Source of the DNA: Deltaproteobacteria bacterium
Lineage (GTDB): Bacteria; Myxococcota_A; UBA796; JAFGLY01
Assembly: GCA_016927815.1 (NCBI GenBank)
Contig: JAFGLY010000157.1
Location: 1 to 58,177 of the forward strand
DNA length: 58,177 nt
Reading direction: 5' to 3'
The first letter of the stretch is position 1; every line of letters begins with the position of its first letter. Positions 26,591 to 42,219 of the stretch are shown here, one piece after another. The position numbers and the translations under genes were made by a program. The notes beneath the pieces are model-generated. The model saw only the letters and a program-made list of their open reading frames with translations. It was not told where the DNA came from and searched no databases.

Positions 26591-26606
26591 CGGATGATAT
26601 CATCCG
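26591..26606. promoter_or_regulatory. Perfect 16-bp palindrome upstream of the MYXO-CTERM-like gene
   Basis: CGGATGATATCATCCG is a perfect palindrome without spacer, 41 nt before the ATG at 26648. Its position suggests an operator overlapping the promoter of that gene. I do not recognise the regulator. Confidence 0.45.
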
Positions 26607-26647
26607 GCATGTGCCCTTCGCCCGACTCGTCACGCACGGGAGGTTCC

Positions 26648-28465
26648 ATGCGCGCCCTGGTCCTCGCCCTCCTCGTCCTGCCGTCCCCCGCCCTCGCGGA
26701 TCTGCAGATCGACGGCGACTACGTCCGGATCTACTACTGGGAGGCCGGTGTCTGGAACAACACGGCGCGTGCGGGCTTCCAGATGCGGGAGGAGGTCGAC
26801 GGCGCCTGGGTCGACGTGACCTACCCCGGCAACCCATGGCAGGTCATCGGGTTCGCCTTCACGTACAACGACGAGGCGTACGACTACTACGGCAACTACC
26901 ACGGGACCACGTACGACTGGACGGTGCTGGACGAGTCGGACCTCTCCAAGGGCACCACCAACGTGGCGCACCACGAGTGGAGCGCCGGTCCTTTGCTCAT
27001 CGCCAAGACCGAGACCTGGGAGGACGACGCTCGCCTGGTGTTCCTGTCGTTCGAGGTCACCAACGCCGCCTCCTCCGACGTCACCGACTTCCGCCTCCAG
27101 CACGCGATGGACCCCGACCAGGACTCCTCGGTCGGCAGCTACAGGACCTACATCGACAGCGTGGACCTCGACGACGACGGCGTGTCCGACTGGGTCGAGG
27201 CCGAGGGGACCGCCTCGGGTTGGACCATCGCCTACGGCACCTGCGACCCGGCCGACGAGGTGGGGGGCACCTACTGGGGCACCGACACCGACTCGACCTA
27301 CTACGACTACGAGGGGGTCAGCTACGACTACCAGATCCACTGGCGTCACAGCGAGGACACGATCGCGGCGGGCGACACCGTGACCTTCGGGGTCGTGGTG
27401 GCGACGGACACCACCGCGGCGGGTGCTGCGCGCGCGTACCTTTCCGGGGCGGGCCCGTTCTGCCTGTGGGACCGCGACGAGGACGGCTTCACGGCCGACG
27501 TGGACTGCGACGACTCCACCGAGCGGGTCTACCCGGGCGCTCCCGAGGAATGCAACGGCGTGGACGACGACTGCGACGGCGTGGTGGACGAGGACGACGC
27601 CGTGGACGCCCCGACCTGGTACACCGACGCGGACGGCGACACATTCGGGGACCCGGAGGTCTTCCAGACGGCCTGCGTGCAGCCCAAGGGCATGGTGGAC
27701 AACGGCGACGACTGCGACGACACGAACCCGGACATCCACCCCGGCGCGTGGGAGACCCCCTACGACGGCATCGACCAGGACTGCGACGGGTCCGACTGGT
27801 GCGACGTGGACGGCGACGGCTACGACGCCGAGATCTGCGGAGGCGACGACTGCAACGACGCCAACCCCGCGGTCTACCCCGGGGCGCCGGAACTGCCCGA
27901 CGGCATCGACAACGACTGCAACGGCGTGGCGGAGGACGACGACACGGACGGCGACGGCCTGCCCGACGAGGTGGAGTACGTGGTGGGCACCGACCCCTTG
28001 AACCCCGACTCGGACGGCGACGGCGTGCCGGACGGAGAGGAGATCGGGTCCGTGGATTCCCCACGAGACACGGACGGCGACACCGTCATCGATGCCCTCG
28101 ACCCCGACGACGACGACGACGGCATCCCGACCACCGTCGAGATCCAGGACTACGACTGGACGCAGACCGGGTCCGCGCCTCCCGACACGGACGGAGACCA
28201 CGTCCCGGACTACCTGGACGAGGACTCGGACGGCGACGGGACGCCCGACGCCGACGAGGGGACGGACGACGCCGACTGCGACGGCCTCCCCAACTACGTG
28301 GACGACGACGACACGGACGGTACGTGCGAGGACACCGCCATCCCCGACACCGGGGAGGACGGGTCCGAGGCGGGCGGATGCGGGTGCGCCCAGGCGCGCC
28401 CGGCGTTCGGTGGCTGGCTGCTCCTCGGACTCCTGTTCCCGTTCCTCCGGCGACGGCGCCCCTGA
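26648..28465 (+). CDS. Surface protein with MopE-type metal-binding repeats and MYXO-CTERM-like tail
   Basis: The 605-residue protein begins with a signal peptide (MRALVLALLVLPSPALA). Residues 18-270 form a beta-rich domain with many Tyr and Asp, possibly sugar- or peptide-binding. Residues 272-430 contain three MopE-type motifs (CDDSTERVYPGAPEECNGVD, CDDTNPDIHPGAW, CNDANPAVYPGAPE), each with DxDGD loops and paired Cys. Residues 430-565 are thrombospondin-3-like DTDGDGLPDE repeats, expected to bind calcium. The end is GCGCAQAR, then a hydrophobic helix, then RRRRP. That is the tripartite MYXO-CTERM sorting signal, where the Cys are processed and the protein is anchored outside the cell. A GGGAGG site supports the ATG over an upstream in-frame one. 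Confidence 0.88.
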   Translation: MRALVLALLVLPSPALADLQIDGDYVRIYYWEAGVWNNTARAGFQMREEVDGAWVDVTYPGNPWQVIGFAFTYNDEAYDYYGNYHGTTYDWTVLDESDLSKGTTNVAHHEWSAGPLLIAKTETWEDDARLVFLSFEVTNAASSDVTDFRLQHAMDPDQDSSVGSYRTYIDSVDLDDDGVSDWVEAEGTASGWTIAYGTCDPADEVGGTYWGTDTDSTYYDYEGVSYDYQIHWRHSEDTIAAGDTVTFGVVVATDTTAAGAARAYLSGAGPFCLWDRDEDGFTADVDCDDSTERVYPGAPEECNGVDDDCDGVVDEDDAVDAPTWYTDADGDTFGDPEVFQTACVQPKGMVDNGDDCDDTNPDIHPGAWETPYDGIDQDCDGSDWCDVDGDGYDAEICGGDDCNDANPAVYPGAPELPDGIDNDCNGVAEDDDTDGDGLPDEVEYVVGTDPLNPDSDGDGVPDGEEIGSVDSPRDTDGDTVIDALDPDDDDDGIPTTVEIQDYDWTQTGSAPPDTDGDHVPDYLDEDSDGDGTPDADEGTDDADCDGLPNYVDDDDTDGTCEDTAIPDTGEDGSEAGGCGCAQARPAFGGWLLLGLLFPFLRRRRP

Positions 28466-30195: not shown

Positions 30196-32414
30196 GCCTC
30201 GGGGACCGACCCGACCAACTGGATCCCCCGCAGGAGTGCGCTCACCGCGTGCTGGACGAAATCCATGCGGACCTCCTGCTCCACGGGCGATCGTCGGACG
30301 GCGCCTCGGGCGAGCAACGGCTCGGGCATCATCCAGGCGTTGTCGGGCCGGATCTGCTCGCGGACCAGGGCATCGAGCGCGAGGGTGGCCTGGCGCTCCA
30401 ATTCGGGGGCCGGTTGCCCCGTGCGCCGGGCGAGGATTGCGGTGGCGGTGACCGCCTCGCCGAAGCCACCCGCCGCGGGCGCCTGGGGGAACAGGAGGGC
30501 TCCGAACCCGTAGTGACCGGCGAAGTCGGCGTTGTCCCACGCGCCCGGTTCGTACTGGAGGCGACCCAGGAAGCGGGCGTAGCCCTCGCAGAAGTCGAGC
30601 CAGCCCGGGTCCTGCAGCCTGGGATACGCCTCCTCGGCAGCCAGGCAGGTCCAGACGTCCGCTCCATAGATGAAGTGCCCGAGGAAGTCGGAGTACTTGG
30701 GGCCCGTGAGGTGGTCCAGCGCGCGGCGGGCCGCGACGCGGTACCGCTCCTCTTCGAGCACGCGGTGGGCCAGGACCAGGGCCAGGGCGGCCTCCTCGGA
30801 GGCGAACATGGCCCGAGCCGTGGGGTCGATGGCCCCGGTCGTGCGGTCGTAGCCGTGGTGGAACTCCCCGTCCTCGCGCTGAAGGGCCATCAAGAGCCCG
30901 AGCAGGCCCTCGACGGTGGTCCGGAGCTCAGGATCGGGTGCGAGGGCGTAGGTCTCGATGAGCGCGACCGCCGCGATGGCGTTCGTCCCGAACGAGACCT
31001 CGGGCTTGGAGGCGATGCACGCTCCGCCCAGTGGGCCGCAGGGTGTCCTCATGGCGGCCTCCAGCCAGGCGGCGCCGGCTCGGGCCCCGGCGAGGCAGCG
31101 CGGATCCCCCGTGGCCTCGTACAGCAGTCCGAGTACCCAGACCACGCCGGCGTGGCGGGCGACGGAGTACTCCCTGACCTTGCGGTTCCGGCCGTCGCGA
31201 AGCCGGGACAGGGGATGGTACAGGTACCGGAAGCGGCCGTCCTCCGCTTGGTGCTGCAGGAGCCACGCACCTCCCTCCCGGGCGGCCTGGGACCAGCGGG
31301 CCACGCGACCGGGCGAAGCGGGCAGCGGTGTGTTCCCCCGTGTCACGGGCAGGGCCTGGCCCTCCCACTCCACCCAGGTCTCGGTCCGCACGCGGATCGG
31401 CCGATCCCGAGGCTCCAGGTGCGCGGCCGCACGGGCCCGCGCCACGTCCATCCCCAGGCGCAGCTCTCGGATGTCCGGGATGAGAGGGGTCTTGCCGAAG
31501 ACCTGCTTCTTCAGGAGGTCGGTGGGGAGGACCAGGAGATCCGGATCCCGGTCCTGCCTCCAGAGCCCCTCCACGCCCGGGTTCACGGAGAGGGCCAGCA
31601 CCGGATCCGCTGCCGAGGCCACCGGCGCGAGGGCCGTCACCCGGTCCACCTGCAGGCGTGCCTCGGGTCGGGGACCCGAGGACGCGATCTCGTCCGCTGA
31701 CGCGCGAACGGCCTCGGCCAGGTCCCCCTGGTCCGACGTCACGCGGAGGGCTGGGCGGCCGCGCTCCCAGGCCGTGACCACGAGCGGACCGGGCCCTCGG
31801 GGGATCCCCTCGAGCGCCGGTGTTTCGGGGCGAACGCGGCCCTCCAGGGCGGCCCGGAGGTGATCCAGGGCCTGTTGCCGGGCGTCCGGCGGAACGGGCG
31901 CGAGCGGCCGAGGCGCGAACCGGAGGGGCACGGCCAGCACCACCGCGAGGGGCACCAGCGAGATCCCGACCAGGAACCGGACCCACCCGCGGCCGGCACC
32001 GAGATCCCGACGCACCTCGCGGCGCAGGAGCGCGCACAGCTTGAGCGCGGGGTAGAGACCCAGGACCTGGAGGGCACCGCTCGCGGCCAGGAGCGCACCG
32101 ATGGACGCGCCCACACCAAAGTCGCCGTAGACGGACCTCAGGTAGGCCCACGACGCCACGAGCCCGCCGACCACGCCCACACAGGCTGTCCACCCCACGA
32201 TGCCCCCGGTCACGGCGAGGCGCCAGCCCCAGCGCCGCCGGCGGGCGAGGCCGGGCACGGCCGCGAGTGCCAGGGCCGCGTAGGCCAGGCCGAGCGCGTT
32301 GGCCCAGGGGGTCTTCCAGGGCACCAGCACCGAGACCGCGAACGCCACGACGAGCGCGTAGACTCCCTCGGCAACGGCCCAGAAGGCGAGGGTCCGACGG
32401 GTCAGGTCCTGCAT
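30192..32414 (-). CDS. Membrane protein with (alpha/alpha)6-barrel glycosidase- or cyclase-like domain
   Basis: The 740-residue protein has four to six membrane helices in the first 190 residues, then a beta/helix linker (190-360), then a C-terminal helical domain of about 370 residues. The latter repeats pairs of helices with GGAWLLQHQAEDGRFRYLYH, LMALQREDGEFHHGY and WLDFCEGYARFLGRL, the pattern of six-hairpin glycosidases and prenyltransferase/terpene-cyclase toroids. The QxEDGxF motif is typical of squalene-cyclase-like repeats and also of sugar epimerases and lyases. Possibly a polysaccharide-acting enzyme in the envelope. The ribosome site GGAGAGAGGG precedes the ATG. It lies 15 nt after the small unknown gene. 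Confidence 0.65.
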   Translation of the reverse strand: MQDLTRRTLAFWAVAEGVYALVVAFAVSVLVPWKTPWANALGLAYAALALAAVPGLARRRRWGWRLAVTGGIVGWTACVGVVGGLVASWAYLRSVYGDFGVGASIGALLAASGALQVLGLYPALKLCALLRREVRRDLGAGRGWVRFLVGISLVPLAVVLAVPLRFAPRPLAPVPPDARQQALDHLRAALEGRVRPETPALEGIPRGPGPLVVTAWERGRPALRVTSDQGDLAEAVRASADEIASSGPRPEARLQVDRVTALAPVASAADPVLALSVNPGVEGLWRQDRDPDLLVLPTDLLKKQVFGKTPLIPDIRELRLGMDVARARAAAHLEPRDRPIRVRTETWVEWEGQALPVTRGNTPLPASPGRVARWSQAAREGGAWLLQHQAEDGRFRYLYHPLSRLRDGRNRKVREYSVARHAGVVWVLGLLYEATGDPRCLAGARAGAAWLEAAMRTPCGPLGGACIASKPEVSFGTNAIAAVALIETYALAPDPELRTTVEGLLGLLMALQREDGEFHHGYDRTTGAIDPTARAMFASEEAALALVLAHRVLEEERYRVAARRALDHLTGPKYSDFLGHFIYGADVWTCLAAEEAYPRLQDPGWLDFCEGYARFLGRLQYEPGAWDNADFAGHYGFGALLFPQAPAAGGFGEAVTATAILARRTGQPAPELERQATLALDALVREQIRPDNAWMMPEPLLARGAVRRSPVEQEVRMDFVQHAVSALLRGIQLVGSVPEA

Positions 32415-32429
32415 GGGCCCTCTCTCCGG

Positions 32430-32687
32430 CTACAGCGTGCGCTTCACGTTGCCGTCGGCCGGGCCCGGCGGCTCGATCCCTGTCTCGCGCGGGACGTCGG
32501 CCTCCGTGGTCGCGTCGGGATCCGGCACGATCCGATCCTCAGGCACGCCGTACCGTACCTGCCGGGGCCCAGGGCCAGCCAGTTCCGCCTCGAGGGCCGC
32601 TTGGGCCGCGGTCGCGTCGGGATCGGGATGCAGCCGGGCCCTCACCCAACCTCGGGCGACGTTGGCAAACCGCTGGAGTACGGACAT
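32430..32687 (-). CDS. Small conserved-looking protein of unknown function
   Basis: The 85-residue protein starts MSVLQRFANVARGWVRARLH, an amphipathic basic helix that could sit on a membrane. After it come an Ala/Glu helix and an acidic Pro-rich tail. It has only a weak ribosome site (AGGAC), but it lies in line between the FmdB gene (55 nt upstream) and the 740-residue gene (15 nt downstream) and its codon use looks coding. I do not recognise it. Confidence 0.5.
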   Translation of the reverse strand: MSVLQRFANVARGWVRARLHPDPDATAAQAALEAELAGPGPRQVRYGVPEDRIVPDPDATTEADVPRETGIEPPGPADGNVKRTL

Positions 32688-32742
32688 GCGGGCGTCCTAT
32701 CCCGCGGTCCGTCGCCTGCCCTCCCCGAGGCCCCCTCGGGCT

Positions 32743-32979
32743 TCATCGCTCGCAGCGGCCCGTACCCTGGCAGGGCGGTGTCTCGCAGCGCTCCTCCCGT
32801 CCGCAGCAGGTCCGACCCGAGGCTCGCGGAGGCAGGTTCCGGTGGGGCGCGGCGGCCGACAGCAGGCGCTCGACCGGGGCCCCGCAGCAGGGAGAGGTCG
32901 AGGGGTCGGGCTCCTCGGGCCCCTGCAGGTGCTCGAACACGGTGGCGCAGGCGGTGCAGCGATACTCGTAGAGAGGCAT
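32743..32979 (-). CDS. FmdB-family zinc-ribbon protein
   Basis: The 78-residue protein begins MPLYEYRCTACATVFEHLQG and has the second knuckle SPCCGAPVERLLS, the defining arrangement of the FmdB/CxxC_CxxC_SSSS family of small putative regulators that bind zinc through four Cys. The C-terminal 30 residues add a further Cys-rich stretch (TCCGREERC, PPCQGTGRC), which is unusual. It starts 12 nt after the sigma-54 activator stop, so it is probably the next gene of that operon. Confidence 0.85.
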   Translation of the reverse strand: MPLYEYRCTACATVFEHLQGPEEPDPSTSPCCGAPVERLLSAAAPHRNLPPRASGRTCCGREERCETPPCQGTGRCER

Positions 32980-32991
32980 CGGGGCTCGCGT

Positions 32992-34347
32992 TCAGGGGAT
33001 GAGGCCGGCCGTCTTCATGCGCCGCCAGAGGGTGACCCGGCTGATGCCGAGGGCACGGGCCGTATCCTGGCGGTTCCATCGATGCGCCTCCAGGGCGGCG
33101 AGGAGATCGACGTCATCGACCTCGACGGCGTGAGCCAGGAAAGCCCGCTCGGACGACGTCGGGTCGCGGGTGGGCTGCCAGCGGGCGATCTCCGGCGGGA
33201 GGTCGCCCACCTGGATGGACGGGCCCGAGGTGAGCGCCACGGCGCGCTCGATGGCGTTCTCCAGTTCCCGCACGTTGCCCGGAAACGGGTAGTCGTACAG
33301 GACCCGCAACGCCGCGGGGGAGATCCCCATCACCGGGCGGCCTCGTCGGATCGCCACCCGCTCCAGGAGGTGCTCGGCGAGGAGCGGGATGTCCTCCCGG
33401 CGGTCGCACAGGGGGGGCAGGTCGAGGGCCACCACGCGCAGGCGGTAGTAGAGGTCCTCCCGGAATGTCCTCTGGCGGACCATTTCGGAAAGGTCCCGGT
33501 TGGTGGCGGCCACGAGACGCACGTCCACCTTCCGGGCGACGCGGTCTCCGAGGGGCTGGATCTCCCCGTCCTGCACGGCCCGGAGCAGCTTCACCTGAAA
33601 GGAGGGGGAGGTCTCGGCGATCTCGTCCAGGAACAGCGTACCCCCGTCGGCCACCGCGAAGCGGCCCGGCGCATCCTCGCGGGCATCCGTGAAGGCTCCC
33701 TTTCGATGGCCGAACAGCTCGCTCTCCAGGAGCGTGTCGGGGAGGGCCGCGCAGTTGATCTGGACGAAGGGCCGATCGGCCCGGGGGCTCAGGCGGTGGA
33801 TGGCACGCGCCACGAGCTCCTTGCCCGTGCCGCTGGGTCCCTGGAGGAGCACCGTGGCGCCCGACCGGGCCACGTCGGGCAGCACGCGGAACAGCTCCCG
33901 CATGGGCGGGCTCCGGCCTACGATGTCCTCGAAGATGGCCTGGCCGTGGAGCTCCCTGCGCAGCGCCTCCACGTCCGAGATGTCCCGTAGGATCTCGACC
34001 CCGCCCACGACCCGCCCGGACGCGTCGCGGAGCGCTGCGGTGGAGATGGTGACGGGCACCTCCCTCATGTGCCGGTCGAGCACCGTGACCCTCAAGTCCC
34101 GCGCCGGAGGCCCTCCCTCCAGCGTGCCCTTCAGGGGGCACCGGCCGTGGCACACGTCCGCGCGGAACACGTCGCGACAGCGCATGCCGATGGCCTCGGA
34201 GCGGTCGAGCCCGACGAGCCGCTCGGCCGCGGCGTTGAACGAGGTCACCCTCCATTCCAGGTCGACCGTGAAGACGGCCTCCCCGATGCTTTCCAGGATC
34301 TGCCCGTAAAGCCGGCACTCGGAGGTGGCGGGATCGGGTTCAACCAC
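32992..34347 (-). CDS. PAS-containing sigma-54 enhancer-binding protein, predicted ORP-operon activator
   Basis: Starts at GTG 34347, with GGAGG 9 nt upstream and an 8-nt overlap of the preceding MinD-like stop. The 451-residue protein has a PAS domain (about residues 12-125) with a Cys cluster, C57, C66 and C70 ([20 protein letters not shown]). Then comes an AAA+ domain with GPSGTGKE, a GAFTDA version of the sigma-54-contacting GAFTGA loop, and [10 protein letters not shown]; last is a Fis-type HTH ([20 protein letters not shown]). There is no receiver domain, so it is controlled by the PAS signal. In Desulfovibrio vulgaris the ORP operons carry a cognate sigma-54 activator in the same place; a consensus -24/-12 promoter heads this operon. 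Confidence 0.9.
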
Positions 34348-35215
34348 GCTCTGTGGCCTCCGACACCGCCTTCCAGGTCTCGCGGATGGCTTCGGCCGTC
34401 GCGGGACGGGCGTCCAGGGGGAGGCGCCCCTGCGCCAGCAGACGCGGGACCAGGGGATCGAAGGGAATTTCGCCGAGGACGGGAACGCCCCGGCCGTGGC
34501 AGACCCTGCGGATGCGGGTGGACACCTTGGGCGCGAGATCCGCCTTGTTGATGACGACGGAGATCGGGCGCCGGAAGTGCTCGGCCAGGTCCAGCAGGCG
34601 GATGAGGTCGTGCTCACCCGAAACCGAGGGCTCGGTCACCGCGACCACGAGGTCCACCCCGCCGATGGCTGCGTGAACCGGGCAGCCGATGCCGGGCGGG
34701 CCGTCGATGAGCAGGTAGGGCATCTGGGCGCGTTCGCCCAAGGTCTCGGCCTCGCGGCGCAGGTGGGCCACCAGCTTGCCCGAGCTGTCCTGGGCGATGC
34801 CCAGTTGCGCGTGGACGAGCAGGCCCGTCGCCGTGTGCCGGATCCGCCACGTGCCCGCGAGGTTGTCCTCGAACGTGATCGTGTCCGGGACCGGGCAGAC
34901 GAGGCCGCAGACGCCGCATCCTTCGCAGGAGATCGTGTGAATCTCGAAGCGCGTCCCCACGGCCCGAACCGCTCCGAAGCGGCAGGCGTCCCGGCAGGCA
35001 CCGCACCCGGTGCAGCGCTCGGGATCGATGCGGGCGCGACGGCCCGAGTAGAAGGCCTTCTCGGAGGTGTCCTCGCCCGGGAGGAGAAGGGCCAGGTTGG
35101 CGGCGTCCACGTCCGTGTCCACCGCGACCGCACGCCGGGCGAGCGCGGCGAACGAGGCCACCAGGGAGGTCTTGCCCGTGCCTCCCTTTCCACTGAAGAC
35201 GGCGATCTGCTTCAC
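34340..35215 (-). CDS. MinD/ParA-type ATPase with inserted 2x[4Fe-4S] ferredoxin domain
   Basis: The 291-residue protein has the deviant Walker A KGGTGKT at residues 10-16, a DTDVDAANL switch, and an insertion (about residues 65-110) with [11 protein letters not shown] and [12 protein letters not shown] binding two [4Fe-4S] clusters. The later [12 protein letters not shown] and VVINKAD motifs complete the ATPase. Such ATPases partner with orange protein/NifX-type proteins in anaerobes, probably in building or transferring a metal-sulfur cluster. The GTG start overlaps the neighbouring ATPase stop as GTGA. Confidence 0.9.
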
Positions 35216-36072
35216 GACGGCCCTCCCGGGCTCTCGAGCAACTCGATGAGCCGCTCCACGGCCTCCTTGAGAGCCGGAGAATCGGCCAGGGGGATGCGAC
35301 CTTCGGAAACGGCGACCGCTATCTCGCGTTCGAAGGGAATCTCTGCCACGAGGGGCACGTCGTTTTCCGCGAGGTGATCCCGGACCCCGCCATCGCCCAG
35401 GTCGGCCCGGTTGAGCACGGCGACGTGTGGCAGGCCGAGCACCCTGCAGAGACGGATGGCCAGGTCCAGATCGTGGAGCCCGAACGGCGTGGGCTCGGTG
35501 ACCAGCACCACGCGGTCGGCGCCCTCCAGGGCAGCCAGGACCGGGCAGGAGGTGCCCGGCGGACAGTCCACCACCGTGAGGGCCCCCTCGGGTGCGGACT
35601 CCAGCACCGCGCTGACGAGCGGCGTGGAGCGGGCTTCCCCCACGTCCAGGCGGCCCGAGTGCCACGCCAGGCCGCCGGTCGTGCCGAACGACAGGCTACC
35701 GATGCTGCGCATCTGCTCCCTGAGCGCCCGGTCCGGGCAGATCTGGATGCAGCCGCCACAGGCGTGGCACAGTTCCGGAAGGACCATCACCCGGTTCCGG
35801 AGGGCGATGATGGCGTGCCAGGCACAGAACCGCTGGCACGCACCGCAGCCCCTGCAGCGCCCATCGACGAGCACCGGGATGGGCACCGAGAACCGCGTGG
35901 TCGTGACCTTTTCCGGGTGCAGGAACAGGTGGCCGTTGGGTTCCTCCACGTCGGCGTCCACGTACGCGACGCGGCCGGGCTCGCGGTCGGCCAGGGCACG
36001 GGCGAAGGCGGTGGACAGGAGCGTCTTGCCCGTCCCGCCCTTGCCGCTGGCGAACGCGACCCTCAACGCCAA
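35212..36072 (-). CDS. Second MinD/ParA-type ATPase with ferredoxin domain
   Basis: The 286-residue protein is a paralogue of its downstream neighbour: SGKGGTGKT at the N terminus, YVDADVEEPN switch, CRGCGACQRFC and CHACGGCIQICP cluster motifs, then VVDCPPGTSCPV. Tandem copies of this ATPase are a hallmark of ORP clusters, where they may form a heterodimer. There is no ATG near the P-loop. I use TTG 36072 (overlapping the NifX gene by 10 nt); TTG 36066 (TTGA overlap) is equally possible. Confidence 0.9.
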   Translation of the reverse strand: MALRVAFASGKGGTGKTLLSTAFARALADREPGRVAYVDADVEEPNGHLFLHPEKVTTTRFSVPIPVLVDGRCRGCGACQRFCAWHAIIALRNRVMVLPELCHACGGCIQICPDRALREQMRSIGSLSFGTTGGLAWHSGRLDVGEARSTPLVSAVLESAPEGALTVVDCPPGTSCPVLAALEGADRVVLVTEPTPFGLHDLDLAIRLCRVLGLPHVAVLNRADLGDGGVRDHLAENDVPLVAEIPFEREIAVAVSEGRIPLADSPALKEAVERLIELLESPGGPS

Positions 36073-36419
36073 CCCCGGGTTGCCTTTCTCTCGAGGGTGC
36101 CCTCGGTGAACCGCCGGTGCGCCTCCGAGACGCGCAAGCCCGGCGGGGCGGTGAGGGGCGTGATCCCGAGCGCGTTCAGCGAGGCCAGGGCCTTGGGCCC
36201 GAACTCGCCAGAGATGACGGTTTCGACGCCCAGATCGCGCATCCAGCCGGCTACGGCGGGGCCCGCACCGTGCCCCGCGTTCCGGTGGGGGTTCGACACC
36301 CGCTGGACCACCTGTCCGGTCTCGTCGAGCACGAGAAAGGCCTCGGCACGGCCGAACCGGGGATCCAGGAGGGGATCCGGATCCGCCGGCGTGGCCACGG
36401 AAATAGCGGCCCGGGTCAC
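36063..36419 (-). CDS. NifX/NafY-type dinitrogenase-cofactor-like protein (ORP-like)
   Basis: The 118-residue protein has the NifX/NifB-C/MTH1175 fold: TRAAISVATPADPDPLLDPR with FGRAEAFLVLD near the start, then AGPAVAGWMRDLGVETVISG and a final GEFGPKALASLNALGI. In orange protein this fold holds a Mo-Cu-sulfur cluster. Here it may carry Fe-S or Mo-Cu material passed on by the MinD ATPases. The GTG overlaps the DUF5320 stop as GTGA. Confidence 0.85.
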   Translation of the reverse strand: MTRAAISVATPADPDPLLDPRFGRAEAFLVLDETGQVVQRVSNPHRNAGHGAGPAVAGWMRDLGVETVISGEFGPKALASLNALGITPLTAPPGLRVSEAHRRFTEGTLERKATRGWR

Positions 36420-36664
36420 GGTTTGCCCGTCCCGCTGCGCAGGGCTGCCAGCTCCCGCTCGAGCGCCTCGAGGCGCTCGAGGAGCGCCGCACGGTCGTCG
36501 TCGACCGGCAGCGGCCCCCAGCCTGCGCGCGCCCACCCCCGTCCTCCCCGTCCGCCGCCCCATCCACCTCCGCGGCCGTAGCGAGCGCCGCCACCGCACG
36601 GTCCGAGGCCACGGCCGGTCATGGGTCCACGACCCAGGGGTCCGGTTCTGTCGAATCCAGGCAT
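36416..36664 (-). CDS. DUF5320 family small protein
   Basis: The 82-residue protein begins MPGFDRTGPLGRGPMTGRGL, the signature of DUF5320, followed by a Gly/Arg/Trp-rich stretch and a coiled-coil tail (LLERLEALERELAAL). Proteins of this family regularly sit beside NifX/MinD genes in anaerobes; their role is unknown. AAGGAG precedes the ATG at a good distance. The tail suggests oligomerisation. Confidence 0.85.
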   Translation of the reverse strand: MPGFDRTGPLGRGPMTGRGLGPCGGGARYGRGGGWGGGRGGRGWARAGWGPLPVDDDRAALLERLEALERELAALRSGTGKP

Positions 36665-36683
36665 GATTGACTCCTTTGTTCCT

Positions 36684-37049
36684 TTACGGACGACGACCCC
36701 GACGCGCCCGCTGCCGGCGGCCTCCCCCAAACCGCCCCCGTGCCGTGGGATCCAGACCCTCCATGCGGCGTTGGAGAACGGCCTCGGCCGGTCCCCACAG
36801 GCCCCAGAAGACGCGGAGCCCGAGGGACTCGGCCAGGGGAAGCCAGCAGCGGTTGAAGCCCCCGCACAGGAGCTCCCGCACGCCGAGATCGCGGAGCAGG
36901 ACCAGGCGGTCGAAGAAGTCGGCGGGCACCGGATCGACGACGTGTCGGCCGGTCTCCCTGCCCTCCTCGATGTCCACCACGAGGATGCGATCCGCCCCGC
37001 AGAAGCGGGGGGAGACGTCATCCTCGAAGAGGGGGAGGGCGAGGCGCAT
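36684..37049 (-). CDS. NifX/ORP-like protein, first gene of the sigma-54 operon
   Basis: The 121-residue protein starts MRLALPLFEDDVSPRFCGAD, the usual opening of NifX/MTH1175 proteins (small-molecule or cluster-binding RNase H-like fold), and continues ILVVDIEEGRETGRHVVDPV and LRDLGVRELLCGGFNRCW. Cys residues at 17, 62 and 68 could bind a cluster. The last 20 residues are Arg/Gly-rich. No clear Shine-Dalgarno is seen; with the -12 element centred at 37076 the leader would be only about 14 nt. First gene behind the -24/-12 promoter. Confidence 0.85.
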   Translation of the reverse strand: MRLALPLFEDDVSPRFCGADRILVVDIEEGRETGRHVVDPVPADFFDRLVLLRDLGVRELLCGGFNRCWLPLAESLGLRVFWGLWGPAEAVLQRRMEGLDPTARGRFGGGRRQRARRGRRP

Positions 37050-37073
37050 GGTCGATGCTCGTGCACGATCTTA

Positions 37074-37089
37074 AGCAATTTACGTGCCA
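37074..37089 (-). promoter_or_regulatory. Sigma-54 (-24/-12) promoter of the ORP-type operon
   Basis: The minus strand reads TGGCACG, TAAA, TTGCT, a full match to the sigma-54 consensus TGGCACG-N4-TTGCW with the GG and GC elements at canonical spacing. It is 25 nt before the ATG of the first NifX-like gene. Expected to need the enhancer-binding protein encoded downstream in the same operon. Confidence 0.85.
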
Positions 37090-37151
37090 AACCTATGGAC
37101 GGCCTCGAGAGGAGGATATCGGGCGGATCGCACCATCGGCGGGAATCCGAA

Positions 37152-37190
37152 TGTTTCAGGGAGACACCATTTCGTATCCCGTCTGAAACA
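37152..37190. promoter_or_regulatory. Inverted repeat, candidate enhancer (UAS) for the sigma-54 activator
   Basis: Perfect 8-bp arms TGTTTCAG (37152-37159) and CTGAAACA (37183-37190), centres 31 bp apart (about three helical turns), 65-100 bp upstream of the -24 element. This is where NtrC-type activators bind. The inner bases (GGGA and TCCC) also partly pair. A transcription terminator for the upstream DsbA-like gene was considered, but no T-tract follows. Confidence 0.6.
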
Positions 37191-37195
37191 AAACG

Positions 37196-38035
37196 TCACC
37201 GAGATCCAACCAGCCGTTCGTACTCCTCGTCGAGCACGTCGAGCAGCATCTCCAGAGTCGGGTTGCCCTGCCACATCCGGCCCGAGATGAAGAACGTGGG
37301 CGTGGCCTTGACCCCGTTGGCCATGCCCTCCTTCTTGCTGGCCACGAGGCGGTCCCGCAGCTCGGGGGAGGCCACGGCCGTGTCGTACCCCGTGACCCCC
37401 ACCTCGGCGGCCCAGCGGGGCAGATGGGTCGGGCTGAAGGCGTCGAACCTCTGGTAGGCGAGGAGGAGAAACTCCCAGAACCGGCCCTGGTCCTGGGCCG
37501 CCAGGGCTGCGAGGCCGGACTCGGCGGAGCCCGGATGGCCCTTGATCGGGAACTGCTTGAAGTACATCCGGACCCGCCCCTTCAAGCTGCCCTCCCGGAT
37601 CTCGCGCACGAGCACGGGCGTGACCTTCGCGCAGAAGGGGCAGCGGGCGCACGCGTACTCCACGAGTACGACGGGGGCGGTCGGATCGCCCACCATGGGG
37701 AGGCCGGCGAGGTCGATGGAGGCCGGCGGCGAGGGCATCATAGAGCGCGCGCGGAGGTCCAGGGCCCGGGCGACGGCCTCGTCGGGCATACCGGCCCTCA
37801 CGTGTCGGCAGACCTGGGCCGCGAGGCGCTCGGCCAGGGGTACGGAACGGTCGAGGCAGGTCGAGATGGTGTCATCACAGCCGTCGTAGACGAAGAGACG
37901 ATCGTTGAGCTCCCGGACACGATCCATCTGGTCCTCCGAGAGGTCCGCGCAGCAGGCGATGGACCCCAGATCGGCCGCTCGGGCGATCCCGGGCACGAAC
38001 AGGGAGGCGACGAGGAGTCGCGGCAGCACGTTCAC
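37196..38035 (-). CDS. Exported DsbA-family oxidoreductase with CcmH-like N-terminal segment
   Basis: The 279-residue protein has a signal peptide (residues 1-20). Residues 25-100 hold five or six Cys (IACC, YDGCDDTISTC, VCRHV) and the phrase QVCRHVRAGMPDEAVARAL, reminiscent of CcmH/CycL helix hairpins. Residues 110-279 are a DsbA/thioredoxin_4 domain with YACARCPFC (C132, C135) and cis-Pro motif VKATPTFFISG. The GTG overlaps the MauE-like stop as GTGA. Probably a periplasmic thiol oxidoreductase whose partner is the membrane protein encoded just before it. The CcmH likeness is a by-eye inference. Confidence 0.85.
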   Translation of the reverse strand: MNVLPRLLVASLFVPGIARAADLGSIACCADLSEDQMDRVRELNDRLFVYDGCDDTISTCLDRSVPLAERLAAQVCRHVRAGMPDEAVARALDLRARSMMPSPPASIDLAGLPMVGDPTAPVVLVEYACARCPFCAKVTPVLVREIREGSLKGRVRMYFKQFPIKGHPGSAESGLAALAAQDQGRFWEFLLLAYQRFDAFSPTHLPRWAAEVGVTGYDTAVASPELRDRLVASKKEGMANGVKATPTFFISGRMWQGNPTLEMLLDVLDEEYERLVGSR

Positions 38036-38505
38036 GAGGTCCTCCGGGTGAGCAGGCGGTCCAGTCCCAGCGGCCGACGGTCGAGCCACTGGACATACAA
38101 CCCCATGGCCAGCCAGGTTCCATCCCGGACCAGGGTGCGCCACGTGATGGGGTCGTCTCCGCCCTCCGAGGCGAAGCAGCCACATCCCATGTCGAGGCCC
38201 CGGGCGAGGGCGATGGCGAGCGCCACCATGAACATGACCATCATGGCGTTGACGAGCAGCACGGCGGCCCGCGTGCGCAGCCCGAGCACCAGCATCAGGG
38301 CGACGAACAGTTCCACCCAGGGCAGCACCAGGGCCTGGAGGTTGACGAGTTCGAGCGGCAGGATCTGGTAGGTGGCCACGTCCAGGGCGAACGAGGCCGG
38401 ATGCAGGATCTTGTGCCAGCACGCGAGCAGGAACACGACCCCCAGGTAGAGGCGGAGGCCCAGCGCGATCCACCCGTGACCGTTCCAGTCGAGGAAGCGG
38501 CTCAT
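38032..38505 (-). CDS. MauE/DoxX-like membrane protein
   Basis: The 157-residue protein has four predicted membrane helices of the MauE/DoxX type, starting near LRLYLGVVFLLACWHKILHP. A GCGCFASEGGDDPI loop lies between helices 3 and 4. MauE-type proteins supply reducing equivalents or a disulfide relay to periplasmic DsbA-like partners (MauD), and here the next gene is such a partner. The ATG overlaps the previous stop as ATGA. Confidence 0.8.
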   Translation of the reverse strand: MSRFLDWNGHGWIALGLRLYLGVVFLLACWHKILHPASFALDVATYQILPLELVNLQALVLPWVELFVALMLVLGLRTRAAVLLVNAMMVMFMVALAIALARGLDMGCGCFASEGGDDPITWRTLVRDGTWLAMGLYVQWLDRRPLGLDRLLTRRTS

Positions 38506-38987
38506 GGCGTCACCTGGGCGCCCAGGTGGGTACGGACCGCGGCCACACCGCCGGGCACGAAGTGGACGTTGCGCACGCCATGCCCCGAGATTTCCCGGGC
38601 CAGTTCCTCGCCGGAGTCGGGTCGATCCCCGTCCCCGTACACCACCACGCGGTCGCAGCGGGTCGAGAGGAGGTCGGAGAGCTTGTCGTCGGAGACCGGA
38701 TCCAGGTAGTCGAAGGGGACGTTTTGGGCGCCGGGCGCAGACCAGGAACCGGCCTCGGCCACGGGTCGGGCGTCGATCACGAGGTCGGCCGCGTCTCCCC
38801 ACCGCACGTCGGCGGGAGCGAGCGGGATCACGTCCCCTCCCGGTTCCGGGCAGGGTACGAGGATGCGGTAGGGCTCCTTCGCGACGATCGGGATCCCGTC
38901 GTGACGAAGGGCGTTCACGGAAAATGCGGCCACGGTCGAGATCGCGACCACGATCCCGGCGTCCCGCACCAAGGTCAGTCCACGCAT
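38502..38987 (-). CDS. Membrane-anchored rhodanese-like protein lacking the catalytic Cys
   Basis: The 161-residue protein has an N-terminal helix (residues 9-26) and a rhodanese-like fold: DLVIDARPVAEAGSWSAPGA, then QNVPFDYLD, then the active-site loop region RVVVYGDGDRPDSGEELARE. In true rhodaneses the position after VVVY is a Cys; here it is Gly, so sulfur transfer through the usual persulfide is not possible. The only Cys residues (46 and 109) are elsewhere. It may be a binding or structural version. The ATG has AAGGGGATC ahead and overlaps the preceding gene by 13 nt. Confidence 0.8.
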   Translation of the reverse strand: MRGLTLVRDAGIVVAISTVAAFSVNALRHDGIPIVAKEPYRILVPCPEPGGDVIPLAPADVRWGDAADLVIDARPVAEAGSWSAPGAQNVPFDYLDPVSDDKLSDLLSTRCDRVVVYGDGDRPDSGEELAREISGHGVRNVHFVPGGVAAVRTHLGAQVTP

Positions 38988-40555
38988 GACGATCCCCTTC
39001 GAGCGCTGTCCTCCTGGCGCAGCAGATCCTGTACCCGGTCGAGGCCGCTGTCCGCCGCGCTCCCGATCCCGTAGGGAAGGGGCAGGTAGTCCGGTCCCAC
39101 GGGGGCGAGGGGGGCGGGTTCGTGCCCCCAGGACGGCTGCCAGCGGGCCTCCACGAGAACTCGGTGATCCGTGTAGGACCAGGCCTCGTCGGTGCTGGTG
39201 CGGTCGGTCCACGTCCAGGACAGACCCCAACGGACACCCCCCAACGGGCGCGTCCACGGCGCCACCTGCAGGCCCCAGGTCCAGTCGCGCCGCCCGGCGG
39301 GGGTGTCGAGGTCGAACCGATCCGCGAGCACGAGCGCACGGGCCAGGACGAGACCCGAGCGGGGCAGGGGCGCCGCCACCCGGAGCAAGGCGGATCCGCC
39401 GACCAGGTCCCACTCGGGGAGGCGCGCATCCTGCAGGCGACCCGAGAGCACGCCGGTGAGGTTCCAGCCGCCGCCGAGCGGCAGCACCAGGGCCGCCCCC
39501 ACGTCGCCCTCCGTACGGGTGCGTGGCGTGTCGCGGTAGAGTCGCCGGCCCGCGCCCCCGAAGACCTGTACCCGCTCGCCCAGGTCCGCCTCGATCTCGG
39601 CCCGGTGGGCCTCCATGTACCAGCGCTGGCCCGACCAGGAGTCGTCCTCCAGAAGCGTGCCGCCCGAGTACGCATCGCCGCTGTTCACGCCCAGGAGTTC
39701 GAGGCTGTAGAGCAGGCGCCCGCGGGTGGCCGTGCGGGGTCCCGCCTCCACGCCGGCCCGGCCGCCCAGGTCGAGCCAGGCCGAGGAGCGCGTGGGGCCC
39801 GAGACCGGGAGGAGGCCCTTCACCCGCGCCTCGGCCACCGGACGCAGGCCGGGGCTGGACCAGGGCTCGTAGCGGAGCACCCCGTCGAGGCTCGCGACCG
39901 GGGATCCGGTGTTTTCGGCAGCGCCCGAACCGAGGTCCTGCGGAGCGCTCTGGACCGCGTTGGAGGTGTAGCCCGCGCTCCCCTGGATGCGGGCGGAGTA
40001 CGGGTTTCCCGTGTCGCCCAGCACCCTCCGGCGCAGCTCCATCTTGAGCACCTCGTCTCCGGGCAGGAGGGGAGCCGTGGGCCGGAGGAGCCTTTCGCGC
40101 GCCTCGTCCGGGTGCCCTTCCAGGTCCGCCAGGGTGGCCCGGAGGAGGGCCTCCCGCTCTCCGAGCGGGCCCGGTACCTCCCGGGTGCCCAGCCAGGCGC
40201 GTGCCCCCGTGAGATCGCCCTCGTCCAGGGCTCGCCAGGCCGCCCAGGTGCGGGTCTCCGCGTCGGTGGGGTCCGCACGGACCTGGTCGGCAAGGACCCG
40301 CCGGGCCCAGGTGTCGTTCCCGGCGCCTGCGTACGCGAGGGAGAGGAGGCGGGCCAGCGTGCCGGCCTCGGCCGCCGTGACACTCGCCCGGGCGGCCTTC
40401 AGGACCTCGAGCGCCTGGGTCCACGCCTCCCGTTCCACGAGGCAGCGTCCCGTCGAGAGGGCACACGCGACGTCCTCGCCGCAGGGTCCGCCGCAGTCCG
40501 CGACGGGATCGTCCGCACGGGCGGCGAGGATGGCCAGGAGGAGAGGGAGGATCAC
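38975..40555 (-). CDS. Outer-membrane beta-barrel protein with periplasmic TPR domain
   Basis: The 526-residue protein has a short signal (MILPLLLAILAARA) and Cys-rich start (CGGPCGEDVACALSTGRC). Residues 45-170 are TPR-like helices (AWTQALEVLKAARASVTAAE). From about residue 185 a beta-barrel of alternating strands begins (YSARIQGSAGYTSNAVQSAP), ending RVLVEARWQPSWGHEPA before a tail. The TPR-plus-barrel layout resembles surface-lipoprotein-assembly modifiers (Slam) and some export porins, but the likeness is structural only. GTG start and stop overlap both neighbours, so it belongs to the same operon as the lipoprotein upstream. Confidence 0.7.
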   Translation of the reverse strand: MILPLLLAILAARADDPVADCGGPCGEDVACALSTGRCLVEREAWTQALEVLKAARASVTAAEAGTLARLLSLAYAGAGNDTWARRVLADQVRADPTDAETRTWAAWRALDEGDLTGARAWLGTREVPGPLGEREALLRATLADLEGHPDEARERLLRPTAPLLPGDEVLKMELRRRVLGDTGNPYSARIQGSAGYTSNAVQSAPQDLGSGAAENTGSPVASLDGVLRYEPWSSPGLRPVAEARVKGLLPVSGPTRSSAWLDLGGRAGVEAGPRTATRGRLLYSLELLGVNSGDAYSGGTLLEDDSWSGQRWYMEAHRAEIEADLGERVQVFGGAGRRLYRDTPRTRTEGDVGAALVLPLGGGWNLTGVLSGRLQDARLPEWDLVGGSALLRVAAPLPRSGLVLARALVLADRFDLDTPAGRRDWTWGLQVAPWTRPLGGVRWGLSWTWTDRTSTDEAWSYTDHRVLVEARWQPSWGHEPAPLAPVGPDYLPLPYGIGSAADSGLDRVQDLLRQEDSARRGSSCVD

Positions 40556-41392: not shown

Positions 41393-41758
41393 CTACCCGT
41401 GTCCGTGCCCGGCGCAGGCGGTGGACGGATCCACGAGGGGCAGCGTGCCGGCCTCGAGGGCTGCAAGCGCGTCGGCCACCGTGCCGCCCATGGCCTGGTA
41501 GACCCGGATGCCGGCCTCGTGGAACCTCCGGATGGCGCCCATGCCGATCCCGCCGACCACGATGGCGTCCACGTTGTGGTCGGCCAGGGCGTCGACCGGA
41601 CGGCACTGGCCGTGACCATCGTGGTCGTCGCGGTTCACCAAGGAGGTGACCTCGCCGGTCGTGCTGTCGGCGATGGCGAAGTACGGGGCGGCGCCGAAGT
41701 GCATGGAGACCGGGCTTTCGCGGCCCAGATCCTGGTCGATGGGGACACAGATGCGCAT
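41393..41758 (-). CDS. NifX/MTH1175-type cofactor-binding protein
   Basis: The 121-residue protein begins MRICVPIDQDLGRESPVSMH and has FGAAPYFAIADSTTGEV, GGIGMGAIRRFHEAGIRVYQ and a His/Cys-rich end (CAGHGHG). It is a third member of this fold in the window, closest to the DUF134-linked subgroup. AAGGAG stands 8 nt before the ATG. It is 5 nt downstream of the DUF134 regulator, so the two form one transcription unit. Confidence 0.88.
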   Translation of the reverse strand: MRICVPIDQDLGRESPVSMHFGAAPYFAIADSTTGEVTSLVNRDDHDGHGQCRPVDALADHNVDAIVVGGIGMGAIRRFHEAGIRVYQAMGGTVADALAALEAGTLPLVDPSTACAGHGHG

Positions 41759-41763
41759 GGGGA

Positions 41764-42219
41764 TCACTCCTTTCGGGTGGACGGGGCGGCGGGGTGGGGC
41801 GTCCCGTCCGCCTGGGTGGGGTCGGTGAGCGGGTATCCCACGGAGGGGTTGCCGCGCAGGTGGGGACAGTCGTCGGGCACCCGAACGCCGGGCTCCGCGC
41901 TCCCCGGGCAGCGCCACCCGGGGTGGAAGGGCGGACAGACCGGTCCGCCCTCGATGTGCAGACCGTGCCCCTCCACGAGGGCCCTGGCCACCGTGCCGCG
42001 GGCGATCTCGAGGATGCGGCCGAAGGTCTGGCGGGAGACCCCCATGTGCCCTGCGGCGTCTTCCTGCGAGAGCCGCTCCAGGTCCGCGAGCCTGAGCGCC
42101 TCCCAGGCGTCGAGGCCCAGGTGCAGGCACCGGATCGACCGGGCCGGGACGCCCGATGGCTCGAACCGGTCGTGGGGCGGGAGATGGGCGATGCGGCGGC
42201 AGCAGGGAGGGCGGGACAT
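41764..42219 (-). CDS. DUF134 family DNA-binding protein
   Basis: The 151-residue protein has MSRPPCCRRIAHLPPHDRFE, then LHLGLDAWEALRLADLERLS and the HTH QEDAAGHMGVSRQTFGRIL, the DUF134 signature. A Cys-rich stretch follows (CPPFHPGWRCPGS, DDCPHL) which may bind a metal or Fe-S cluster. The last 25 residues are disordered. Such regulators regularly sit beside NifX-type genes. It is divergent from the predicted Sec-peroxiredoxin, with a 24-bp palindrome in between that is a likely binding site. Confidence 0.88.
   Translation of the reverse strand: MSRPPCCRRIAHLPPHDRFEPSGVPARSIRCLHLGLDAWEALRLADLERLSQEDAAGHMGVSRQTFGRILEIARGTVARALVEGHGLHIEGGPVCPPFHPGWRCPGSAEPGVRVPDDCPHLRGNPSVGYPLTDPTQADGTPHPAAPSTRKE

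Follow-up and report, generated by a model that had tools for sequence, protein, structure and literature searches.

Gene content of the ORP-type operon

The minus strand of the window (the whole stretch of 58,177 nucleotides analyzed here) carries a tightly packed operon, in which the genes downstream of the promoter described below overlap or almost touch. In reading order, and starting with the upstream neighbor, the genes are as follows.

37196-38473, minus strand: preceding ORF on the same strand, thioredoxin-like, with its stop at 37196
36684-37049, minus strand: gene 1, divergent Nitro_FeMo-Co / MrpORP Di-Nase-like protein (PF02579, E 0.098, below the cut-off)
36416-36664, minus strand: gene 2, DUF5320 protein (PF17253, E 2e-5; 26.1 bits, below the cut-off of 27)
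36063-36419, minus strand: gene 3, Nitro_FeMo-Co (dinitrogenase iron-molybdenum cofactor) protein (PF02579, E 2.8e-16)
35212-36066, minus strand: gene 4, MinD-type P-loop ATPase with a 4Fe-4S ferredoxin domain, Orp3/Orp4-like (CbiA/ParA and Fer4)
34340-35218, minus strand: gene 5, second MinD-type ATPase with a ferredoxin domain (CbiA and Fer4)
32992-34347, minus strand: gene 6, PAS-AAA (sigma-54 interaction)-Fis activator (PF00158, E 1.6e-67; PF08448; PF02954)
32743-32979, minus strand: gene 7, FmdB-type zinc ribbon protein (PF09723), 12 bp after gene 6

The presence of two MinD-ferredoxin ATPases (Orp3/Orp4-like) together with a Nitro_FeMo-Co protein (Orp8-like) identifies the cluster as ORP type. 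The product of gene 5 shares 54 to 56% identity with its relatives, the start of gene 6 overlaps the end of gene 5, and gene 7 is possibly the end of the operon. A preliminary description of this DNA had proposed this gene order, with a PAS-AAA-Fis activator as the sixth gene (34347-32992), and both were confirmed. None of the operon proteins tested reached the 450-bit cut-off for MrpORP (Orp9, in which a P-loop NTPase is fused to a Di-Nase domain). What genes 1 and 3 have in common with it is limited to the Di-Nase part, gene 1 aligning to just the C-terminal part of the NCBIfam model (E 0.007). Since no full MrpORP was found among the operon proteins tested, we use the term ORP-type rather than full ORP operon.

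Two other regions of the window may be mentioned. At 41393-42219, a Nitro_FeMo-Co gene adjoins a DUF134 (HTH) gene, and the two may form a metal-cofactor unit of their own. The ORF at 26594-28465 encodes a large acidic repeat protein whose C-terminal tail we take to resemble a MYXO-CTERM sorting signal, a feature that would point to Myxococcota.

The intergenic region ahead of gene 1

Between the preceding gene, which stops at 37196, and the ATG of gene 1 at 37049 lies a gap of 146 bp that contains both a sigma-54 promoter sequence and an inverted pair of short arms. The elements recognized in it are the following.

37089-37074, minus strand: predicted sigma-54 promoter TGGCACG-TAAA-TTGCT (-24/-12), TGGCACGTAAATTGCT, exact consensus match
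37173-37190, minus strand: distal predicted activator site TGTTTCA-gacg-GGATACG, TGTTTCAgacgGGATACG, 18-bp dyad with a perfect outer half
37152-37169, minus strand: proximal predicted activator site TGGTGTC-tccc-TGAAACA, TGGTGTCtcccTGAAACA, 18-bp dyad with a perfect outer half

The promoter sequence has the GG of the -24 element and the GC of the -12 element (consensus TGGCACG-N4-TTGCW), and in a scan of the window with TGGCACG-N4-TTGCT it was the only full-consensus site of the 58 kb, with 0 mismatches, all other matches having 2. At the genome scale (3.99 Mb), pattern searches retrieved 3 exact matches, against 1 for the reversed control pattern. The other two exact promoters are located on contigs C86 and C115, and the sequence read around them lacks TGTTTCA arms. 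The genome encodes rpoN (Sigma54_DBD, 205.6 bits), and no sigma-70-like promoter was found within 32300-39700. Transcription is predicted to start at about 37063. The full-consensus match on the minus strand that had been claimed earlier was therefore recovered at 37089-37074, close before the first gene, but the spacer to the ATG counts 24 bases instead of the 25 given.

The arms, TGTTTCAG and CTGAAACA, span 37190-37152 as read on the minus strand, with their centers 31 bp apart. TGTTTCAG has exactly two exact occurrences in the window, at 37190-37183 (minus) and 37159-37152 (plus), while shuffled sequences gave an expectation of 0.19, and the pair is unique in the whole genome even when up to 3 mismatches are allowed (control, 0). 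We prefer to read these arms not as a single operator but as the outer halves of two 18-bp activator sites in tandem, predicted to be centered about 108 bp upstream of the start. The distal dyad has the single best 18-bp dyad score of the whole window (11/14), the proximal one is joint second best (10/14), and the two, 21 bp apart, form the top tandem pair in the 58 kb (21/28), a ranking that is not independent of the arms because the motif was partly seeded by them, whereas the N4 spacing and the 21-bp step were derived from relatives. The inner half-sites of both dyads are weak (4/7 and 3/7).

Two other registers were considered. A 15-bp reading of the proximal arm, TGTYTC-N3-GARACA (37166-37152), was the first one and was dropped in favor of the 18-bp N4 register on the strength of the perfect N4 dyads and the 21-bp steps of relatives. 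The unit TGAAACA-N3-TGTTTCA is frequent in relatives (10 near-perfect cases) and was not chosen because in the window it lands on the two weak inner halves. The 18-bp dyad is thus a provisional choice of dimer unit.

Conservation of the predicted promoter and operator in relatives

Clusters with the MinD pair were gathered within the order and the phylum to which the window belongs, and 80 loci of other species were added; ORP-type MinD-ferredoxin clusters were found across many bacterial and archaeal lineages. Sigma-54-like sites were counted with up to 2 mismatches, a tolerance that implies that some of them are not real promoters. In clusters with a related activator or a gene-1-like gene, such sites recur, as a qualitative observation, a short distance ahead of gene 1 or of whichever gene comes first after the activator (among others, L036, L038, L046, L057, L070, L073, L076, L081, L086, L102, and L122, as well as L123, L131, L134, L164, L171, and L172), and the gene-1-like proteins of relatives likewise stand behind them. 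This recurrence spans many lineages and differing upstream neighbors. It bears on whether the operon might instead be read through from the same-strand genes upstream, the consensus match being incidental. The preceding gene (37196-38473) does have the same orientation, and the 146-bp gap yielded no terminator-like site, but exact matches to the consensus are few in the genome and homologous clusters keep a sigma-54-like site at the equivalent place behind other neighbors; we give read-through hardly any credence.

The operator was assessed by sorting whole loci according to the recognition helix of their activator and counting perfect TGTTTCA/TGAAACA half-sites 40 to 150 bp upstream of the sigma-54-like sites. 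In loci with a TLWRRM or TLWRWM helix (n = 17), 13 of the 32 sites had at least one such half-site. The total was 25 half-sites, where their density predicts 1.0, and the mirror-image interval downstream contained none. The figures were 5 of 66 sites (9 half-sites versus 0.92 expected) for loci with other activators, a group that takes in L165, whose TLWRRM activator crosses the edge of the sequence analyzed, and 4 of 51 sites (4 versus 0.98) for those without an activator in view. A separate group of 15 sites had been partly picked after the arms were seen, so the whole-locus count (25 versus 1.0) is the figure to use. The arms thus recur ahead of clusters of relatives whose activator has one of these helices, which is where the preliminary description had proposed to look for them.

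The architecture of these sites is also conserved. Perfect 18-bp TGTTTCA-N4-TGAAACA dyads are found in L123 and L164, both of which also show the 32-bp start-to-start spacing of the 7-mers seen in the window, and 21-bp half-site steps appear in L122, L123, and L164. L156, from the same order, has a near-identical layout, TGTTTCAG-N22-CTGAAACA ahead of TGGCACGCGTATTGCC. Sites and promoters are weaker in L038 and L041. In loci with non-TLWRRM activators, the dyads found ahead of sigma-54-like sites are different ones, for example, GGGTTGCATTTTTGCAACCC in L073 and AGTCGCATTCCTGCGACT in L102. In L170 (1961-2055), half-sites and a sigma-54-like site, TGGCACCTCTTTTGCT, lie immediately before the activator gene, a layout suggesting that in this relative the activator is autoactivated from its own promoter.

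The activator and its clade

Gene 6 has the domains of a sigma-54 activator, that is, an AAA domain with a GAFTGA-type loop and a Fis-type DNA-binding domain. Its loop is the GAFTDA variant, which PMC4641369 reports for DVU2106, the orp activator of Desulfovibrio vulgaris, and lists as compatible with activation. The PAS region of gene 6 holds the cysteine motif C-x8-C-x3-C, and a looser pattern, C-x6-10-C-x2-4-C, is present in 49 of the 51 activators compared here.

In a tree of these 51 activators, with operator labels assigned by hand and L038 counted on imperfect half-sites, 12 of the 13 operator-bearing activators, including that of the window, fell in one clade of 17 rows (support, 100/99). 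The operator label required 5 changes on the tree, compared to a mean of 11.8 for shuffled labels, and none of the 500 shuffles gave a value as low. The exception, L156, branches outside the clade, yet its activator has the TLWRRM helix. Within the clade, L152 has the variant half-site TGTTCCA, and no such operator sites lie close to a sigma-54-like site in L168 or L174. L037 and L169 are truncated at contig ends and could not be scored. These data support the view that the operator goes with the clade of the regulator.

A perfect 8-bp inverted pair would suit many regulator families, and the weak inner half-sites leave room for another reading, in which a repressor or some other transcription factor uses the repeat as its operator and activation of the sigma-54 promoter comes from elsewhere. 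The location of the arms (upstream, about 108 bp from the predicted start), their 21-bp tandem register, and their co-occurrence with sigma-54-like sites and one specific activator clade make this very unlikely. An enhancer, the role that had been assigned to the arms together with the 31-bp distance between their centers, agrees better with dyads placed some 70 to 150 bp upstream and conserved along with the cognate activator. The exact pair was found as claimed and the half-sites and activator clade of the relatives support that role; what has changed is that the single operator is now read as two tandem dyads.

A second activator in the same genome

The genome holds a second ORP-type activator on contig C59 (L159), with 50% identity to gene 6 and the recognition helix HKSTFFRLV. 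It adjoins a gene-1-like gene and, as in the window, is accompanied by a sigma-54-like site and a dyad (L159:7447-7614), but the dyad is GCGACT-N14-AGTCGC, located 98 bp upstream of the sigma-54-like site CGGTACGGGGCTTGCA that precedes the neighboring gene-1-like gene. With such a paralog at hand, the promoter and enhancer of the window could be real and still be used by another activator of the same genome, such as that of C59, with gene 6 acting elsewhere. We regard this as unlikely, as the C59 activator differs in its helix and has a different dyad at its own locus, while the TGTTTCA sites track the TLWRRM-type clade. The different helix and different dyad fit two insulated circuits, the C59 case coming from one locus. 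Contig C141 (L035), which ends within the cluster, carries another MinD-ferredoxin pair together with a Nitro_FeMo-Co-like gene, and no sigma-54-like site was found before the genes of this copy.

Proposed mechanism and comparison with known systems

We consider it highly probable from the sequence features that 37190-37050 comprises a sigma-54 promoter and the enhancer belonging to it and that the operon is activated by its own sixth gene. Sigma-54 RNA polymerase would bind TGGCACG-N4-TTGCT and wait there, while dimers of the gene 6 protein would bind the tandem pair of 18-bp sites, which are of the TGTTTCA-N4-TGAAACA type and 21 bp apart, and assemble into a larger ring, which would open the promoter through ATP hydrolysis. 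As the transcript to be activated includes the activator gene itself, the operon would form a positive feedback loop. The PAS domain, with its C-x8-C-x3-C motif, probably reads the signal.

Enhancers of the NtrC/NifA type consist of dyad sites on one helix face, with a -24/-12 promoter about 100 bp downstream. The predicted sites of the window resemble such tandem upstream activator sites in layout but have another half-site sequence, and the sensor of the activator is a cysteine-bearing PAS domain instead of a receiver or GAF domain.

The closest comparison is with D. vulgaris Hildenborough, where orp1 and orp2 are two divergent operons that need sigma-54, DVU2106, and IHF, the last of these between the activator sites and the promoter (PMC3897727). 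Judged by PMC3897727 and PMC4641369, the two systems share sigma-54 promoters ahead of MinD-ferredoxin / Nitro_FeMo-Co genes and a single-component activator with a GAFTDA loop. Palindromic activator sites are also found upstream in both (-131 and -88 in D. vulgaris versus about -108 in the window), the comparison being one of positions. The window differs in having one operon with the activator as its sixth gene, not outside the sigma-54 operons. The analogy drawn in the preliminary description thus holds for sigma-54 with a cognate activator but probably not for the expression of the latter, since PMC3897727 reports DVU2106 as sigma-70 expressed and self-repressing. The genome of the window encodes four IHF/HU-like proteins, none of them above the himA cut-off.

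The TGTTTCA-N4-TGAAACA operator was not described in the open-licence literature found on the orange protein system with sigma-54, which dealt with D. vulgaris; this scope makes the absence weak evidence of novelty. A switch made of sigma-54 and a cognate activator is known in one sulfate-reducing bacterium; in the window the activator gene lies within the cluster that it would control, and the predicted operator is newly described. More tentatively, and with somewhat less than even confidence, we propose a TLWRRM-helix clade that combines a distinct tandem TGTTTCA-N4-TGAAACA operator with 21-bp steps, in this genome a positive-feedback activator within the operon, and an Fe-S or thiol signal perceived via the conserved PAS cysteines.

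As far as the literature found indicates, D. vulgaris is the only organism in which the control of ORP-type clusters has been elucidated. With an operator sequence defined, two activators of one genome differing in helix and operator, and an activator inside the operon, the signal that is read would become directly testable, and likewise how paralogous activators stay apart.
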